A stretch of DNA of 64,000 bases from Candidatus Gastranaerophilales bacterium (GTDB taxonomy: Bacteria; Cyanobacteriota; Vampirovibrionia; Gastranaerophilales; Gastranaerophilaceae): contig CALVEK010000011.1 of assembly GCA_944326555.1 (NCBI GenBank), positions 1-64,000 of the forward strand, in the 5' to 3' direction. Of the stretch, positions 7,537 through 62,891 are shown piece by piece (the first letter of the stretch is position 1; each line of letters begins with the position of its first letter). The position numbers and the translations under genes were made by a program. The notes below the pieces were generated by a model. That model ran no database searches and was not told the origin of the DNA. It was given only the letters and a program-made list of their open reading frames with translations.

Positions 7537-9801
7537 TTAATTTTTGGAATTTATTTTTGTTTTAAATAAAGTAATATTTTCTCTGATTTCTTCACACAGT
7601 GCTTGGTAATCTCTTTGATTGCCGTTCTTTTTTAACCATTCATTGAACATTTCTTCAAATTTTTCCCCTGTTATTATTGAGGCTTTGTTTTCTTTTTCTG
7701 CATCAAAGAAAGTATTTACATATTCTTCGATAAATGGTTTGACAAATTTAGATATATCGCTTGAAATCATCATTGCTTTATTTGAGTACTCAACAATGTC
7801 ATTTTTTATATCCGGTTTAAACAGTTCATAGGAGTAGCCATTTGGTGTGCAACCTATATATTTTGTTTTTGAGCCAAGACCCCATTTTGTTACTGATTTT
7901 AGTATGAGATTTGTACTGCTTTCCAAATCACCGCTTACACCATCGGTATGTCCGTCAAACATCTCTTCTTCTATACTGTAGCCACCATAGTTAACAACAA
8001 GTGTACTAAGTAGTGATTCTACAGTTAGTCGGCTGTTGTCAGACGGTTTCATAAGAGTTAAACCCGCAGCATCTCCTCGAGATTCATTTACTATAAAATC
8101 GACTTTTTGAATAGGTAATTTAGATTTATGGTATTCATTTGCAAAAACATTATTCATTATTATCTGGTTAATTGCATGACCTGCTTCGTGTGCGATTATT
8201 GACCTTTGTTCAAAATCTGACTTTTCGCTATCATTTTTTATGCCTATTAATGACTCCAATTTTGCTTCATTTATGTCTTTAGGTGTGATGTATTCAATTT
8301 TTCTTCCAAGGTATAGAGTTTTTCTATAGGCCTTTTTAATAATATCGGCAAGTTCTGCACCGGATAAACCTGATGATGTTTTTGCCAAATCATCTAACAA
8401 TTTTTTCTTTGTTTCTTCATCTTTAAAAGGTTTGTCTTTTGCATTTATTTCCAGTATTTCTCTACGTGCTTTTTCGGAAAATCTTGGGTCATCGATTTTA
8501 AATTCAAAATCAATACGGCCTTTTCTAAATGCTTCATCGAACAAGTCTCTTCTGTTTGTTGCAAGTATTGTTATTACTTTTATTTCATTTTCTTCTTTTG
8601 TTTGAACACCGTCCATTTCGCCAAGAAGAGCATTTAGGGTATGATTGCTTTCTGTATTGTTTGCACTTTCTCTTTTGGCTGCTACTGCATCAGCTTCATC
8701 TATAAATATTATTGCTGTTTTATTTTCATTTTTTGCTGCAAGATTTCTTGCCAATGCGTATAGTTCTCTTACGTGTTTTGCTCCTGCTCCTACGTATATT
8801 TCATTAAAGCTGCTGCCGTTAGCACTAATTAATGGTACTTTTGCCTCACCAGCAATAGCAGTTGCAAGGAGAGTCTTGCCTGTGCCGGGAGGTCCGTATA
8901 GTATTATTCCTGATGGTTTGTCTGCTATTTTTACTTTTGGGTTGTTTAGTATGTTTAAAAGTTCTTCTTTGATTTGTTTTTTTACGTTAAATAATCCGCC
9001 TACATCATCAAATGTTGTTTTTACATTTTCGTATACTCTAAAATTCGATATTTTTTCAGGGGTGGGTTTTTCTTCTTCTTTAGGTCTGATATTTTCAAAA
9101 TTTCCTTCAGGTTTATCAGCTTTATTATATTTTTTTTCATACTTTTTAGCTAATTCGGGGTATTTTTTTGCATATTTGTTTTTATCTGCAAGCAATTCTT
9201 GTGCAAATAAATTACAGCCGCTGTCTCGAAGTTCTTCTATAACATCTGTATTACTTCCGAAGAGATTGCTTAGTTTGTGATAATAAAACTCTCCTTGATG
9301 TTCGGGGGTAAGAGTTTTTACCATTTTTCTGAGTTCTTGTGCGATTTGCAATGTAGAATCGTAATCTACAGCTGTAAAAAATGGCGAGCCCATTGTTCTG
9401 ACTTTAGGTACAAGCAGTTGAAATCTTATGTCTTCATCTGCTTTTTTGAACATCTTAATGATATTTTGAGCCATGCTTATATCATTTGCATACAGCGATA
9501 AATTAAACGTCGATTCTTGATCTCCGTTTCGCATAAGTAAAAATTGATTTTTGACTTTTTCCGGTTGTTTTTCTATTGCATCAAAAAACTTTTTACTCTT
9601 TTTTTCAAAATCTTCTATTGTTTCATCTGTATCTATTGTAGTAATTTTTGCAAACTGTTTATAAAATTCGTTTGCTATTCTTTTGTCATCAAAATTGGAG
9701 CCAAATGTCGGTCTTGTTATATTAGTCGTCATTTGGGTAGGTTGATTTTGATAATATTTATTAGCTGTATAACTATAAGTGCGTATATTATTTATTTTCA
9801 T
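7537..9801 (-). CDS. FtsH-like AAA+ zinc metalloprotease without membrane anchor
   Basis: A 754-residue protein. The AAA+ core has Walker A GPPGTGKT (303-310), Walker B IIFIDEAD (364-371), ATNRRD sensor 1 and the arginine-finger region RKGRIDFEF. The M41 peptidase part has the zinc motif HEAGH (538-542) and a downstream GDLES (D625) as probable third ligand. This is the FtsH domain order, but no N-terminal transmembrane helix is visible. In its place are about 250 residues beginning with a Gln/Asn-rich stretch that ends in PTFGSNF, then helical, loosely ankyrin-like repeats (SPFFTAVDYDSTLQIAQEL). It is therefore probably soluble and selects substrates differently from housekeeping FtsH. A PTFGS motif near the N-terminus is shared in form with three other proteins of the window. 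Confidence 0.88.
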   Translation of the reverse strand: MKINNIRTYSYTANKYYQNQPTQMTTNITRPTFGSNFDDKRIANEFYKQFAKITTIDTDETIEDFEKKSKKFFDAIEKQPEKVKNQFLLMRNGDQESTFNLSLYANDISMAQNIIKMFKKADEDIRFQLLVPKVRTMGSPFFTAVDYDSTLQIAQELRKMVKTLTPEHQGEFYYHKLSNLFGSNTDVIEELRDSGCNLFAQELLADKNKYAKKYPELAKKYEKKYNKADKPEGNFENIRPKEEEKPTPEKISNFRVYENVKTTFDDVGGLFNVKKQIKEELLNILNNPKVKIADKPSGIILYGPPGTGKTLLATAIAGEAKVPLISANGSSFNEIYVGAGAKHVRELYALARNLAAKNENKTAIIFIDEADAVAAKRESANNTESNHTLNALLGEMDGVQTKEENEIKVITILATNRRDLFDEAFRKGRIDFEFKIDDPRFSEKARREILEINAKDKPFKDEETKKKLLDDLAKTSSGLSGAELADIIKKAYRKTLYLGRKIEYITPKDINEAKLESLIGIKNDSEKSDFEQRSIIAHEAGHAINQIIMNNVFANEYHKSKLPIQKVDFIVNESRGDAAGLTLMKPSDNSRLTVESLLSTLVVNYGGYSIEEEMFDGHTDGVSGDLESSTNLILKSVTKWGLGSKTKYIGCTPNGYSYELFKPDIKNDIVEYSNKAMMISSDISKFVKPFIEEYVNTFFDAEKENKASIITGEKFEEMFNEWLKKNGNQRDYQALCEEIRENITLFKTKINSKN

Positions 9802-9889: not shown

Positions 9890-11185
9890 TTACAAATTTT
9901 CTTTTTGTTCATTCAAAGAGCCAAAACTATCAACACCGATTTCTTGAAGTAGTGCAATATACGCATTGTAATATACACCAATGGCACTTATATATTCATT
10001 CATTAGTTCTTGGTGAGAATGTTCTACAACTATTAAACTGGTCAGTGGGGTTTTACCTTTTTTGTATCTTTGTTTTGAAAGTTTAAGAATCTTTTTTGAT
10101 TCTTCCAAAATTTCGTCATAATGCCCAACATTTTCTTTTGCTATGACAAATTTGTCATGGTTTGTATGTATAACATTCTTTGTAATATTTATTATTGAGT
10201 TATATTCAAGTTGAGCTTTTTCGTAATTTAGTTTTGCGTTTTTTATTTCCGGTGAGTATAAATACAGTGATGGTATATCAAAACCTGCTCCGACATAGGC
10301 ACCAGGTGTCCCATCATGGGCAAATGCATATCCACCTGAAAGATATATATCAGGAATTCTTTGCTTTGCTGCTACATCAATATCTCTTTTTGCTTTCAAA
10401 ATTTTTGTTTCAGCCATTTTTATGTCATATCTGTTTTTAAAGGCCGTTTCTTCCAGTTCTTCATATCCTGGAAGGTTTAGTTCTGCGACAAATGACTTGT
10501 CAAAAAGAGAATCTTCTTTTGTGTCATATAAAGTGAGATTATTTTCGAGATTTAGGACTCTGTTGAAGTTATATTGAGCAGTTCTAACGTTTGCTTTTGC
10601 TTTGTTAATTTGTATAATTTGTTTTTTTAACTTCATATCAGCTTGGAGCAGATCTATTTCATAGCTGTCAGACTTTTTGGGTTTATTTTTTGCTATTTCG
10701 TATAAATCTTCAAGCAGTTCTTTTCTTTCTTCCATTATCCTTAAGTCTGATTTTGCAAGAAGCAGGTTGAAGTAGGCTGTTCTTATTCTGAGTTTTAGCT
10801 TAAATTCATAGTCATTTATTTTATTTTCTGTATATGATAGGCCTGCAACAGCTGCTTTTTTTCTTGCTCCTCTTTTTGTTATTTCAATAGGAAGCATAAG
10901 CCCAAATTGGCTTGAATTGCCTTTTGCAATGCGCCCCATAAGAAAATTAGATTGAAACTGTGGATTTTTTAGCGCATTTGCTGCTTTAATATCATTTTGA
11001 GATATTCCCAAATTTTTGCGTTGTTCTTGCAGCTCAATATTGCCGATAAGAGCCATTTCCATTGCTTTGTTTAGGTCTATTTTATACTTATCATCATCGG
11101 AAAAAGCTCTTTCCGTTGATGTTTCCGCAAAAGCTCCAAGGCAAAATACTGCCAAAAATAAAATTGTGAGTAAAAACCTTTTCAT
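9890..11185 (-). CDS. Outer-membrane factor (TolC/CusC superfamily)
   Basis: A 431-residue protein with a signal peptide (residues 1-20, ending GAFA). It has two long-helix repeats: IDLNKAMEMALIGNIELQEQRKNLG and IKAANALKNPQ in the first, NRYDIKMAETKILKAKRDIDVAAKQRIPDIYLSGGY in the second (given here only as landmarks NRYDIKMAETKIL and RIPDIYLSGGY). This is the outer-membrane efflux protein family, closest in look to CusC/CzcC metal-efflux ducts. No inner-membrane pump or adaptor lies beside it, so its partner is elsewhere or it pairs with emrAB. It is divergent from the alcohol dehydrogenase gene. Confidence 0.85.
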   Translation of the reverse strand: MKRFLLTILFLAVFCLGAFAETSTERAFSDDDKYKIDLNKAMEMALIGNIELQEQRKNLGISQNDIKAANALKNPQFQSNFLMGRIAKGNSSQFGLMLPIEITKRGARKKAAVAGLSYTENKINDYEFKLKLRIRTAYFNLLLAKSDLRIMEERKELLEDLYEIAKNKPKKSDSYEIDLLQADMKLKKQIIQINKAKANVRTAQYNFNRVLNLENNLTLYDTKEDSLFDKSFVAELNLPGYEELEETAFKNRYDIKMAETKILKAKRDIDVAAKQRIPDIYLSGGYAFAHDGTPGAYVGAGFDIPSLYLYSPEIKNAKLNYEKAQLEYNSIINITKNVIHTNHDKFVIAKENVGHYDEILEESKKILKLSKQRYKKGKTPLTSLIVVEHSHQELMNEYISAIGVYYNAYIALLQEIGVDSFGSLNEQKENL

Positions 11186-12516: not shown

Positions 12517-12549
12517 AAAGCTCCGTTTTTTGACGGAGCTTTGTTTTTA
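12517..12549. terminator. Bidirectional terminator
   Basis: A perfect 10-bp stem (AAAGCTCCGT at 12517-12526 with ACGGAGCTTT at 12533-12542) and a 6-base loop, T-rich on both strands. It lies between the convergent alcohol dehydrogenase gene and the 957-residue gene. Confidence 0.9.
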
Positions 12550-15420
12550 TATATCTTTCATAATTATATCCGGAATCAAATTTTTCAAAATATCGTGTAT
12601 AATATTTTCCAGAAGAATATTTTTTGCATCTTGAGATTCTTTATTATCTGTTATAAATTCAACTGCACCCTTGTAGTTTCTTATATAGTCAATTACAAGA
12701 GATTCATCTGCTTGAAAAAGCAAGTACCTGCTAAGGCTTTTTTGTGATTCTAATGACATATCTTCATAATATTTGAATCCGTTTTCTCTGATGGTTTTTA
12801 TTTGTTTTTTCAATATGTTGTTATAGAAGTCTTCAGCTTTTATTGTACTTAGTTTTTCGGCGTATATTCTATATCTATTGTCTACTATTGATGTTTTTTC
12901 ATTATACTGTTCTTCAATATTATTCTCTTTTATATATTTAGCCGAATCATTTCTTGTGTTCTTAAATATTGTGCAATCGTTTGTTAACTCGTAGAGTGTT
13001 TTATTCATAGCAAATTCATTTGCTTTTGACAGCAATGGATATTCTCTTTCGAAGTCTTTTGATATTTCTGCCTTTATCTTGTTTAGCGATTCTTTTACTT
13101 CTTTTATTTTTTGAGGATTTATGTCAATTTTTGCTTGTCCTATTTCTAAACCTACAAATGCGCTAATTACTTCTTCTCGCATTTCCGGATGGTTTAAAAT
13201 ATAGTCTGTTAATGTTTCTCTGAATTCGCTGCTATAGAATTTTGTATCTTTTGTTGATAGGGCTTTGAATGCCTTTTTCAGAGATTTCATTGAAGAAAAA
13301 TCTACATTATATTTGGCTGTTAATATGTGTTTTGCAGAGCTTTTGGCAGCGCGTTCTTCATTTGTTTTTACATTGTTGTCAGACATTACATGTTTTTCGT
13401 ATGAGCATATAAAGTAGTCTATTGCTATGTGTTCTAAAATTGCTTTTTTTACTTCTTCTGAATCTGTCTGATTTAATAGTTTTGCGTATCCGTTGTAACT
13501 TTGAATAAATTTTATGCTTTCATTTCTAAATGTTGTACTTTTATCCAAGCTGTTTTTGATTATTTGCAGGTTCATCATAATATTATCCGGCAGAGCGTAG
13601 TTGTCTGTGCCGTTAATTGCCATATCTTCTAATTTAGGCAGTATATTGTTTTTGAGGAGTTCAAGAGCCTCTTTTTGATTCATTGGCTTTGCTAATTTTT
13701 TCATTTGTTGATTGAATAATGTTTTTTGTGTGATTATTTCTTTCATCAATTTTGGATTTTGTACCAATATATCGTAAGAATCTCCTCTTTCGTTTCTGAA
13801 AATTGAAGGATTGCCTGTTTTTTCATACAAGAAGTTGTTTATTATAAATTCATTGGTTTTTGATATAAGTCTATGTTGATTATCAAATTCGTGGTTTATT
13901 TTTTCTATTTTGGGGATATATTCTTGTTTTATTTTTTCAAGCCCATCTTCATCTACATTGAATAATTCTTTTGCATCGGGTCGGTTTAATTTAACGACAT
14001 CTAATTTTGTTTTGTAGTCAACTTTTTGCATAGCGAAGTCTAAAAATTCTCTGGCAAAAATATCAGGAGAATATTTTAGTAAATCCATTTCTATTTGTTT
14101 AAATAACATTAGTATTTCTTTTTTTGAATAATTTTCTATAGGAGTTAGATTCTGTTTTTGCTCTATTTTTGTATCTTCTTGTTGCTTTGGCTTGGGGGCG
14201 AGCTTTTGCATTTCCAGTCTTTCTCGTCTCTTTAGCTTTGCTTTTTCAAGTATTTTTGATTTGAGATCTAGTGCTTGGTTTATTAAAAACTCTAATTTCT
14301 CAGGATGTTCTTTGTCGTGGTATGCTACATCAAAATCTGAAATAGTTTCTTGTATGGCTTTTGAATATATTGTTTTAAAATTAGGATCTTTATTCCAAAA
14401 TTCGAGCATAATTTCTCTCGATTTTTCGGCAAAAGTGGGAAAATCCGTATTAAATTCATCATCATTCATTTTATCGGCAAATATTTGACTGAGTCTTTCA
14501 GAAAAGCCTATTTTTGCCGCAGCAATTGTCATAATTTGTCCTTGGAATTTTGAAAATATTGAGTCGGCAAATTCTTTGCCGTTCATCATTTTTTTGACTT
14601 GTTCTTCTCTCTCTATTTGATTAAGACCTGCCCACCAGCTTTTTGATGATATACTGAGCTTTTCTCTTGTTTCCTCTGATATTACTCTTGGGGTCTCAGG
14701 CTGTTTTCTTACAGGTGGAATGTATTCTTTATCGTTTCTTGTTGCTAAAAATGAATTATAGTAAGACAAATTTGGGTATTTTATTCCAAGAGAACGTATT
14801 GTTGAATTTGTAAAGTATTGACCGTTCTTTACTCCAAGTTCTCTTTTTATTGCTTCTGTCGCATCTTTATCAAAATCTTTATTTATTTCTTCTATTGTTT
14901 TTCCTTCAAGATAGACCTTTTTTAGCAAATATAATGTTATGTCTTTTTCTTTAGAATCTTTAAATATAGGTGTATTGCTTGTTTGTTTATCCCATTTTAA
15001 AAGTAATAGAATTCCTGATGATGGCTTTGTTTCATCCACTGTCTTCAAATTTGCAAATAATTCTTCATTTGGGTAGATTTCTTTTACTTCTTTTATATCG
15101 TCAGCAAGTTTTAAGTATTCGAATGCCAATCTTTGTAATTGAGCAGGTGGCATGTGATGTCTCGTTTCAAAGTCTTCTTCCAGATACTTCCTTACTGTAT
15201 CAGGCATGTTTTTTTTGTTAAATTCTTGTGCATAGAAATTTTCCGGAGTTCTGTTTAATCTTTCACCAAAACTTATTTTGTTTATGTTGTAGTCTCGGTA
15301 AGCGTAAATGTTGTGTGTTTGTATTGATTTGGAAATGTTTTTGACTGTTTTGGATTTTAAGTTATTATTTGTATTTGTTTTTTTATAATGATTATTTTGT
15401 GGCAACAGATTAATTTTCAT
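12547..15420 (-). CDS. Large uncharacterised helical protein with an internal duplication
   Basis: A 957-residue lysine- and glutamate-rich protein without signal peptide or membrane segment. The Asn/Lys-rich N-terminus ends in KISFGERLNR (residues 48-57), like three other proteins here. Residues about 247-282 (SEETREKLSISSKSWWAGL) resemble the NUMOD3 type of DNA-binding motif found in homing endonucleases, and a basic linker follows (KAKLKRRERLEMQK). The C-terminal half is duplicated: LISKTNEFIINNFLYEKTG at 518-536 matches LLSKANEFAMNKTLYELTN at 797-815, and similarity continues from 591 and from 868 (NILPKLEDM and NILKKQIKT) to the end. No catalytic motif is recognised. It is monocistronic. 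Function unknown; DNA binding is only a hint. Confidence 0.75.
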   Translation of the reverse strand: MKINLLPQNNHYKKTNTNNNLKSKTVKNISKSIQTHNIYAYRDYNINKISFGERLNRTPENFYAQEFNKKNMPDTVRKYLEEDFETRHHMPPAQLQRLAFEYLKLADDIKEVKEIYPNEELFANLKTVDETKPSSGILLLLKWDKQTSNTPIFKDSKEKDITLYLLKKVYLEGKTIEEINKDFDKDATEAIKRELGVKNGQYFTNSTIRSLGIKYPNLSYYNSFLATRNDKEYIPPVRKQPETPRVISEETREKLSISSKSWWAGLNQIEREEQVKKMMNGKEFADSIFSKFQGQIMTIAAAKIGFSERLSQIFADKMNDDEFNTDFPTFAEKSREIMLEFWNKDPNFKTIYSKAIQETISDFDVAYHDKEHPEKLEFLINQALDLKSKILEKAKLKRRERLEMQKLAPKPKQQEDTKIEQKQNLTPIENYSKKEILMLFKQIEMDLLKYSPDIFAREFLDFAMQKVDYKTKLDVVKLNRPDAKELFNVDEDGLEKIKQEYIPKIEKINHEFDNQHRLISKTNEFIINNFLYEKTGNPSIFRNERGDSYDILVQNPKLMKEIITQKTLFNQQMKKLAKPMNQKEALELLKNNILPKLEDMAINGTDNYALPDNIMMNLQIIKNSLDKSTTFRNESIKFIQSYNGYAKLLNQTDSEEVKKAILEHIAIDYFICSYEKHVMSDNNVKTNEERAAKSSAKHILTAKYNVDFSSMKSLKKAFKALSTKDTKFYSSEFRETLTDYILNHPEMREEVISAFVGLEIGQAKIDINPQKIKEVKESLNKIKAEISKDFEREYPLLSKANEFAMNKTLYELTNDCTIFKNTRNDSAKYIKENNIEEQYNEKTSIVDNRYRIYAEKLSTIKAEDFYNNILKKQIKTIRENGFKYYEDMSLESQKSLSRYLLFQADESLVIDYIRNYKGAVEFITDNKESQDAKNILLENIIHDILKNLIPDIIMKDI

Positions 15421-32204: not shown

Positions 32205-34120
32205 TAATTGTCTCCAGTTCTTAGCTTGTTTTTTATATTTTCTCTTAGTTGCATTTGTATTTGGATTGCTTCAATTTCATCGTCATTTAGTTTTTTATAT
32301 TGAGACCTTAAATGACTTTGGACTTCCTTTTCCTTAAAAGCAGCTATTTTTGCAATATTTTCATTAATAGCATTTTTAAAGTCTTTTTCCGACAAATTTT
32401 TAAAACTGTCGGATAAATATATCAAATCTGTAATTATATCTTTGACTTCATAGTCCTCGGCAAATTCTGTGTACAGGGTTTCGATTAATTCTTTAACATT
32501 ATTTACCCGTTGAACTAATTTGTCAATTGTATTTTTTACAATTATTAACGTATCGTTTGTATATTCGACATCCTTTAAAATACTGTTTAATGTTTGGATG
32601 CTATAAGAGCTTTCTTCTATTAAATACATCGACAATAAATTTTTTTGCGCTTTTTCTGAAATATTTAAAGATTTCTTTACAATAGGCGCTAATGTTGTAT
32701 TAGCCTGTGTTTTGGGTGTGATTGAAAAGGTGTCTGCTGTACTCTTTTTCAATTCTTTCTTTAGTGCAGATTCATTGATATTCAATTGTGCACTTACTAT
32801 TTTTGTATATTCATCTCTTATTATGTCGTTATTAATTTCGTTTAGGTATGGAATGACTTCTTTTACCAGATTGTTTTTTTCTGTTGGCGTCATGTCCGGT
32901 CTTTTGTGTTTTAAAACGCTGTTAATTTGAAAATCTACGAGTAGTGGTGCTTTATTTAGAATTTCTTGGTATGCTTCGGCTCCGTTTTCTCTGATAAATT
33001 CATCAGGGTCTTTGCCCTCAGGCGGAACAACAACTCTAAGTTCACAAGAGTATCTGTCGTTATTGTTTGCTATTGATGAGTAACTTTCGTCAAATTGTTT
33101 TATGTTTCCAAGACCTGCAAATGCTTCTTTTATAACATCCGCACCTCTTTTAGTTGCATTTTGACCTGCTTTATCTGTATCAAAGGCGAGGTAAATTCTA
33201 CGGGATTGTGTATACCTCGATATTAGCTTTACATGGCTTTCTGTCAGTGCAGTGCCACAAGCTCCTACTGCATTTTTTACACCGTTTACCTGTGCGGATA
33301 TTACATCAAAATATCCTTCCATTATTACTATAGAATCTTTTTCTTTTATTGCATCTTTTGCTTGATATAGCCCGTACAGAATATTGCTTTTGTTATAAAC
33401 AACGGTATCAGGAGAATTGAGATATTTTGGGTTTTGGCCTGATTCGATGGCTCTTGCTCCAAAAGCAACAATATTCCCTTTATCATCAAAAATTGGAATT
33501 GTTATCCTGTTTCTAAATCTGTCCAAGTAGCCTCTTGAGTTTTCTCTTTTTATTACAAGACCTGCTTTATCAATTATTTCTTCACTATATTTGCCTTTGA
33601 GGTGTTGTTGCAATTCATCATAAGAATTTGGCGCAAAGCCGAGTTTGTAAAGTTCTATATTTTCATCCGTTATTCCTCTTGATGAAATATATTTGTAGGC
33701 AACAGAATCTTTGTTTTTTAAGAGATTAGACTTAAAAAATTCGGCTGCATCAAGCATGCAAGAATAAATTTGTTCTTTTATATCTTTATTGTTGTTTTGT
33801 TTTTCAAAAGAAGATGGAAGTTCTATACCCAATATTTCGGCTTGCTCTTTGACTACATCATGAAAACTCTGATTATTAATTTTCATCAAAAAGCTAAGAA
33901 CATCGCCGCCTTCTCCGCAGCCAAAACACTTGTATATCTGTTTTGCAGGGCTGACACTAAAAGACGGAGTCTTTTCGTTGTGAAAAGGACAACGTCCCCA
34001 GTAATTTCCTCCTGATTTTTTCAGGATGACATATTTTGATATGACATCAACTATGTCTAACCTGTCTTTTATTTGTGCAACGACGTCTTGATAAGTTATT
34101 CCATTCATTTCGTTTAACAT
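32204..34120 (-). CDS. dnaG: DNA primase
   Basis: A 638-residue primase from the ATG at 34120. The zinc ribbon is [13 protein letters not shown] with the second pair in [10 protein letters not shown]; the catalytic TOPRIM domain contains [12 protein letters not shown] and LAFDTDKAG; the rest is the helicase-binding region. It synthesises RNA primers at replication forks. The start is uncertain: an ATG at 34162 is in frame but would lie under the divergent promoter region, and one at 34108 is also possible; none has a clear ribosome site. Co-transcribed with rpoD. Confidence 0.95.
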
Positions 34121-61856: not shown

Positions 61857-62891
61857 CTACCTTCTTAATGTTGAAATATCTAAGTTATAATCGCATACAT
61901 TTGACAGTGTGTTTTTAATTTCCTGAGGGTAATTGTCAAAGTTTAAAAGGCGTTTTCCATTAATTTCTGATATAACTTTGTTCATATTCTTCTGTATGTT
62001 TTTTAGCATTTCGGGGTGAGATTCAAACCACTCTTTGTATGGAATGCTCCCTCTATGGCTGTTGCATTTTTCGCACATTACAAGAAGGTTGGAAAAATTG
62101 TCGTGCCCACTCTTATTGGCAGGAATTATGTGATCCAGTGTTGGTAAAGACGGAGACATTAGCCTTTGTCCAATTTCTCTATTACCTCTTTGTGCATATT
62201 TAATCATGAATGCATCGACATCATCTTTTGATGTAGGTAATTGTTGGAGCTTTTTTAGGATTGTATCTATTTCCTGTTTTTCTTCGCAGACTTTTTTTAA
62301 TGTTTCAAATTCTTTTATTATTCTGCTTCTTTTTTGTCTTGTTTCCTTTGGTTCAACAAATATAATTTCTCTTACTTTTGCAAGAGTGTTATCAAGTTCT
62401 TTTTGTGATTTAGGGCTTAGTTCTAACTTCATGGATGCAACATCATTGATTATTTTTAGTTGTTTTATTTCCAAACGGCCAAGATGGTAGTAGTATCTTT
62501 TTTTTAGCAGTGTGTTCAAGTCAGCATTCGGGTCTTTATTTGCTGCTCTTTTAAGCAAATTATAAACAGTTTTTTCTGTAGAGCGCATGTATGGAACGTA
62601 AGGTTTCAGTTTCTTCAAGACAGGAGCCGCAGGACCTTGAAAATCTTTTGATTTGAATTTTGCATATTCTTTTTCGTTTATCATTTTTTTTCCACAGCAT
62701 GCACAAGGCAGGTTTTGAATGTTCCTCAAGTTAAATGCATCTTCTTTGTCTACACGTGCAGAACCAAATGATATTGTATCTTTTTGTAATTTGTAAGATA
62801 AGGTGCTGTATACAATGTTTTCTTGTATACAGTTTTTATTTTTACTTATTGGGTGGTACACAAAAGTTGTTATTTTTAATGAGCCTGTCAT
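61857..62891 (-). CDS. HNH-family nuclease-like protein with N-terminal ISFGS motif
   Basis: A 344-residue protein. The HNH core lies at 252-280: LDHIIPANKSGHDNFSNLL then CEKCNSHRG, with D253/H254, N268 and zinc cysteines C273 and C276. The other zinc pair is probably CACC (C63, C66) near the N-terminus, so about 185 mostly helical residues lie between the two halves of the zinc site, where ordinary HNH proteins have about 20-30. The polar N-terminus contains TISFGSARVD (39-48). It is convergent with the DUF262-like gene (5-base gap) and follows its paralogue by 35 bases. A DNA-cleaving role is inferred. Confidence 0.75.
   Translation of the reverse strand: MTGSLKITTFVYHPISKNKNCIQENIVYSTLSYKLQKDTISFGSARVDKEDAFNLRNIQNLPCACCGKKMINEKEYAKFKSKDFQGPAAPVLKKLKPYVPYMRSTEKTVYNLLKRAANKDPNADLNTLLKKRYYYHLGRLEIKQLKIINDVASMKLELSPKSQKELDNTLAKVREIIFVEPKETRQKRSRIIKEFETLKKVCEEKQEIDTILKKLQQLPTSKDDVDAFMIKYAQRGNREIGQRLMSPSLPTLDHIIPANKSGHDNFSNLLVMCEKCNSHRGSIPYKEWFESHPEMLKNIQKNMNKVISEINGKRLLNFDNYPQEIKNTLSNVCDYNLDISTLRR

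Follow-up and report, generated by a model that had tools for sequence, protein, structure and literature searches.

FtsH proteases are anchored in the membrane, according to a review of the family (PMC9020784). The window analysed here, a stretch of 64,000 nucleotides from a contig of Candidatus Gastranaerophilales, gut bacteria related to cyanobacteria, carries a gene for an FtsH-type protein of 754 aa, and this raises the question of what a member of this family does without its anchor and what its unusual N-terminus is for. With a probability of about one in two, we propose that it works in the cytosol as an ATP-dependent zinc protease and is one of a set of divergent paralogs that share an N-terminal tag, and that this tag is read by one receptor.

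A soluble FtsH-like protein

The 754-aa open reading frame lies on the minus strand at 7537-9801, where stops crowd the plus strand. Pfam placed an AAA domain at residues 299-436 (5e-35) followed by Peptidase_M41 at residues 531-693 (1.7e-17). Both matches are above the cut-offs. The open reading frame represents a real gene for an FtsH-type protease, as a preliminary description had stated. The NCBIfam FtsH equivalog TIGR01241 was not reached (269.6 bits versus a cut-off of 600). The features of the locus are the following:

7537..9801, minus strand: whole gene, 754-aa soluble FtsH-like AAA+ M41 protease (ORF list, Pfam, orthologs)
9712..9801, minus strand: disordered leader, residues 1-30 (pLDDT <50 at residues 1-34; poorly aligned)
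9697..9711, minus strand: tag motif PTFGS, residues 31-35, with F33 invariant in 13 orthologs (alignment)
9121..9696, minus strand: helical-repeat domain, residues 36-227 (AlphaFold2 models)
9046..9120, minus strand: charged linker, residues ~228-252 (pLDDT <50)
8494..8907, minus strand: AAA domain (PF00004), residues 299-436 (Pfam)
8872..8895, minus strand: Walker A, GPPGTGKT, residues 303-310 (ortholog/FtsH alignment)
8788..8802, minus strand: pore loop, EIYVG, residues 334-338 (alignment)
8689..8712, minus strand: Walker B, IIFIDEAD, residues 364-371 (alignment)
8506..8526, minus strand: SRH, RKGRIDF, residues 426-432, lacking the last arginine of the canonical RPGRFDR (alignment)
7723..8211, minus strand: M41 peptidase domain (PF01434), residues 531-693 (Pfam)
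8176..8190, minus strand: zinc site HEAGH, residues 538-542 (alignment)
7918..7932, minus strand: third zinc ligand Asp625 in GDLES, residues 624-628 (alignment)
9890..11185, minus strand: TolC-like gene, 88 bp upstream of the FtsH-like gene and in the same direction (ORF list; sequence reading)

The arrangement with the upstream neighbour, which we take to be TolC-like from reading its sequence, is conserved in most loci of the genus. In the window, as in some relatives, the genes that come next are presumably PerR/Fur-like and rubrerythrin-like, again by reading of the sequences. An Rfam search of the 64-kb window gave no match, and matches in a promoter scan were at chance level.

No transmembrane segment was found in the 754-aa protein, whose best 19-residue Kyte-Doolittle mean was 0.99 versus 3.07 in canonical FtsH. 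Predicted membrane helices would count against the loss of the anchor, so this earlier claim holds; since the canonical form of FtsH is spread universally, the anchor was presumably lost here rather than gained elsewhere. AlphaFold2, run with 13 orthologs, modelled residues 36-227 as one compact helical unit (block means mostly 70-95) whose helix pairs, arranged in the model much like a solenoid, resemble ankyrin repeats. No Pfam ankyrin match was obtained in the protein at E up to 1, and Foldseek with the N-terminal domain returned only E-values >0.1, though ankyrin proteins rank near the top. VIA-align matched the domain to DARPins with Z ~8 over ~120 residues at ~3 A, and to designed helical repeats and scaffold proteins with Z 8 to 10, values that by the program's own note may reflect merely a common arrangement. 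The DARPin match is within the noise for helical repeats. The helical, ankyrin-like repeats of the preliminary description are thus borne out by the predicted structure as helical repeats, but not as ankyrin by Pfam or Foldseek significance, and for the modelled domain ankyrin is our best guess.

In structure, the catalytic part resembles FtsH and AFG3L2 most closely. Walker A and B, the pore loop, HExGH and the third zinc ligand align with those of the canonical FtsH of the same genome. The catalytic motifs are kept in 7/7 aligned orthologs, and the domain architecture is maintained in the orthologs of the protein. All catalytic parts had been described as intact: GPPGTGKT, IIFIDEAD, HEAGH and GDLES are indeed present, but one SRH arginine is lost. 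In the alignment rows shown, this last arginine is absent throughout the 754-aa clade, while the RxGR arginines are retained. Its loss need not mean inactivity, since the second AAA domain of p97, where the motif reads RPGRLDQ, is active without this arginine as well.

The same genome encodes two further M41 proteins. A normal FtsH of 620 aa with two N-terminal hydrophobic helices is found on contig C13. The 754-aa protein is therefore not the sole FtsH; had it been, the preliminary description would have been refuted. The third one, on contig C38 (L004:1908-5018), is soluble, has ~1000 aa and carries a degenerate ATPase. Proteins of this class occur order-wide (relatives L035-L044) and have a tagged leader; their N-terminal part appears to us Clp-like, a reading that Pfam does not confirm. 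In a maximum-likelihood tree of AAA plus M41 (54 rows including 23 canonical FtsH, root not inferred), the 754-aa class formed its own clade (100/99) apart from the canonical proteins, and the ~1000-aa class formed another, separate clade (100/100). Relations among the non-canonical classes are unsure, since some long branches meet in the tree. A sister of the 754-aa clade in genome G031 (L012:1462-4443) has a longer N-terminal half and REAGH in place of HEAGH, and judging from this sequence it is probably an inactive protease. A profile of the N-terminal domain detected this domain in 11 of the 23 species of the genus, with one weak match in another genus, and a protein search added further orthologs from other genera. 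In Gastranaerophilales, the non-canonical M41 proteins constitute a family, a point absent from the preliminary description, as is the N-terminal tag treated below.

It is improbable, in our view, that the ATPase or the protease of the 754-aa protein is inactive and that the protein serves as a scaffold or chaperone. Such a role would fit the missing SRH arginine of the whole clade, the sister protein with REAGH, and the alignment of the related ~1000-aa class, which has lost the Walker A lysine, the Walker B glutamate and the arginine finger and retains HExGH. Against it, the 754-aa clade itself keeps Walker A and B, the RxGR arginines, the pore loop, HExGH and the third zinc ligand. We rather picture a soluble, FtsH-derived ATP-dependent zinc metalloprotease, six subunits of which may form an FtsH-like ring. 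The helical-repeat domain, presumably placed at the ATPase entry, could select or hold substrates, and might also aid assembly in place of the membrane anchor. For such an enzyme we infer a dedicated substrate set, as had already been suggested.

The N-terminal motif and its carriers

The leaders of non-canonical M41 proteins align poorly save for a closing motif, which is PTFGS in the window protein and PSFTG, VSFGG, INFSG, VPFTG or VSFKG in others. F33 is one of only 6 invariant residues among the first 240 in the 13 orthologs. In its loose form, [PVIL][STN]F-x-[GA], the motif closes the leader in 31/31 non-canonical M41 proteins with a readable N-terminus. A strict pattern matched 18 of 28 non-canonical M41 leaders versus 0.43 expected after shuffling, a test that is partly circular since these sequences had themselves suggested the pattern, and it matched 0/18 canonical FtsH. 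Three further non-canonical M41 proteins, which lay outside the definition of the pattern, have ITFTG, LTFGV and LSFGA.

A strict pattern was then counted, first in the own genome, in samples of 0.33-0.46 Mb per genome using predicted gene starts; PTFGS of the window protein itself falls outside it. In the own genome, it occurred 16 times in 30,800 N-terminal positions versus 6 times in 95,015 interior positions, an 8.2-fold enrichment (p 2.6e-6, like the other p-values uncorrected for the small number of patterns tried). Two genomes fetched after the pattern had been fixed served as held-out samples. For G043, of the same genus, the counts were 13 versus 6 (7.1-fold, raw p 3.9e-5), and for G145, of another family, the N-terminal enrichment was 3.6-fold (raw p 0.03). 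No enrichment was observed in the samples of G073 (same family, genus g6) or of the outgroup G157 (another order), and the tag is therefore lineage-limited and uneven. Patterns with Tyr or Leu replacing Phe gave no consistent N-terminal excess in the genome samples. Since bare F-x-G showed no N-terminal excess either, the claim of a tag rests on the longer motif. The motif is short, it was first noticed in M41 sequences, and chance matches occur. A first position-weight scan for the tag was discarded because it clearly misfired on ordinary enzymes; one of these, at 32207-34120 of the window, we take from its sequence to be DnaG primase.

According to Pfam, the carriers of the motif in the own genome include an alpha-amylase-domain protein, a starch-synthase-like protein, a DEAD/DSHCT helicase, two tandem AAA ATPases, an HNH nuclease and a weak GNAT match. 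The tandem ATPases (L064:14175-17394) have leaders tagged PVFKG and PSFKG, and the HNH-nuclease-domain protein lies in the window (61860-62891, minus strand), where ISFGS closes its leader. A 957-aa protein with no Pfam family, also in the window (12547-15420, minus strand), has a leader ending in ISFGE, with INFKA in its orthologs, and it also adjoins the locus of the FtsH-like gene in relatives. It is uncertain whether FolE2 (one case, with a short leader) and a FliH-like protein of G043 belong to the tagged proteins.

Canonical and divergent copies were compared for glycogen synthase, helicase and FtsH. The canonical glycogen synthase GlgA, on contig C1, starts with MKIMFVSAEV and is untagged, whereas 3/3 divergent GlgA-like proteins carry the tag: QVSFG on C5 (L059:7779-10160), KISFKG on C29 (L221) and KISFG on C17 (L222). 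Two of these three came from a family search and not from a search for the tag. SFG stays constant throughout 19 GlgA-like orthologs, whose leaders otherwise drift. Divergent helicases were tagged in 9/9 cases (the own copy on C2 and eight relatives), and the canonical-type helicases of relatives start without the motif. In the FtsH family of the own genome the canonical protein is untagged and both divergent copies, of 754 aa and ~1000 aa, are tagged.

The motif could also be an inherited quirk, or a feature of translation or folding, on an ordinary soluble FtsH paralog, with no sorting involved. The otherwise variable leaders, the lack of an N-terminal excess of bare F-x-G and the uneven presence of the motif between genera would agree with this, but we consider it unlikely. 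Common descent cannot explain a motif that recurs in unrelated families, spares the canonical copies and is 7-8-fold enriched at the N-termini of two genomes. The tag is the more surprising part of the case, and it has moderate support. More tentatively, it may be an undescribed N-terminal address borne by a few percent of the proteins of Gastranaerophilales, marking divergent duplicates of housekeeping enzymes for a separate location inside the cell or for export as a set through the conserved second flagellar-type apparatus. A literature search found no published description of this N-terminal motif, and the conserved hydrophobic-S/T/N-F-x-G/A sequence matches no N-terminal targeting signal known to us.

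Sorting within the cell or export

The composition of tagged leaders is skewed towards P, N, Q, Y, S and T, and away from F, L and D. Type III signals are often disordered as well, with a composition rich in N, S, P, Q and T and poor in L, F and D. The disordered, polar-rich tagged leaders, which have no hydrophobic core, are suggestive of such signals. The main alternative is that leader and motif form an export signal of a flagellar-type (type III) apparatus, and that the tagged proteins, the 754-aa protease among them, act outside or in another cell. Genes of FlhA and FlhB type were found in 58/59 relatives, usually as two full copies of each. Several genera retain only the lower-scoring copy and their motility set seems gone, copies being assigned to sets by score class and by gene clusters in one genome, G145. 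In that genome, the second export set has its own cluster with FlhA, FliF, FliH and rod-type genes (L175:8473-18865). Genome G157, the only one without FlhA/FlhB-type genes, is also without the tag.

However, the link between export genes and tag is a co-occurrence with a single negative genome, and G006 of genus g6 has export genes, yet the g6 member G073 shows no enrichment of the tag. To our knowledge, type III signals have no conserved motif. Furthermore, the gut lumen does not supply the nucleotides on which an AAA+ protease, a GlgA-like protein and a helicase depend. We therefore judge export quite unlikely. The motility flagellum was set aside as reader of the tag, since tagged M41 proteins also occur in genera that have kept the lower-scoring export set alone. 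Several genomes of the genus encode, close to the tagged GlgA-like gene, a stand-alone protein of ~490 aa that matches FlhA in its cytosolic part only (FHIPEP 321-655; L059:5586-7046, L176:13541-15019). The FlhA- and FlhB-type genes have been reported before as complete or partial flagellar sets (PMC3787301, PMC4040986).

Sorting within the cell is the reading that we favour. Many tagged proteins are enzymes expected in the cytosol, and a likely membrane segment was present in only 1 of 41 tagged proteins from two genomes. The first 35 residues of the 754-aa protein would then be a lineage-specific tag, namely a disordered leader closing in a motif of the hydrophobic-S/T/N-F-x-G/A type, common to divergent paralogs (GlgA-like, helicase, amylase and AAA ATPases) and missing from canonical FtsH and GlgA. 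One putative receptor would read it and gather the tagged set at a common place inside the cell. Type III export signals and the encapsulation peptides of microcompartments are likewise short disordered N-terminal stretches common to unrelated cargo.

Relation to known proteases and significance

The 754-aa protein shares with FtsH (M41, TIGR01241) and with the mitochondrial i-AAA and m-AAA proteases the AAA-M41 order, the Walker motifs, an aromatic pore loop, HExGH and the third Asp. It differs from FtsH by the missing membrane anchor, the helical-repeat N-terminal domain, the tagged disordered leader and the loss of one SRH arginine. The ~1000-aa M41 proteins of the same order are likewise soluble, with a tagged leader, an extra N-terminal region and an M41 domain with HExGH, but they have a degenerate ATPase and a different N-terminal region, and belong to a separate clade. 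The engineered soluble YME1L (PMC5095350) is also an M41 AAA+ protease freed from the membrane and provided with a soluble N-terminal module; there, an engineered hexameric coiled coil has taken over from the membrane span, whereas the 754-aa protein has a natural module predicted to be a helical-repeat domain.

Soluble domains of bacterial FtsH are able to form hexamers in isolation (PMC9020784), while mitochondrial relatives stripped of the anchor lost both hexamers and activity, which returned once a soluble hexameriser was supplied (PMC5095350). Since FtsH is described as anchored and its mitochondrial relatives depended on the anchor in this way, a natural soluble form offers a case in which assembly without the membrane can be tested directly. 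Should the tag serve as a sorting signal, a targeting route would come to light in a lineage of gut bacteria that is known mostly through genomes of uncultured members, and the cargo of this route could be listed from sequence alone.
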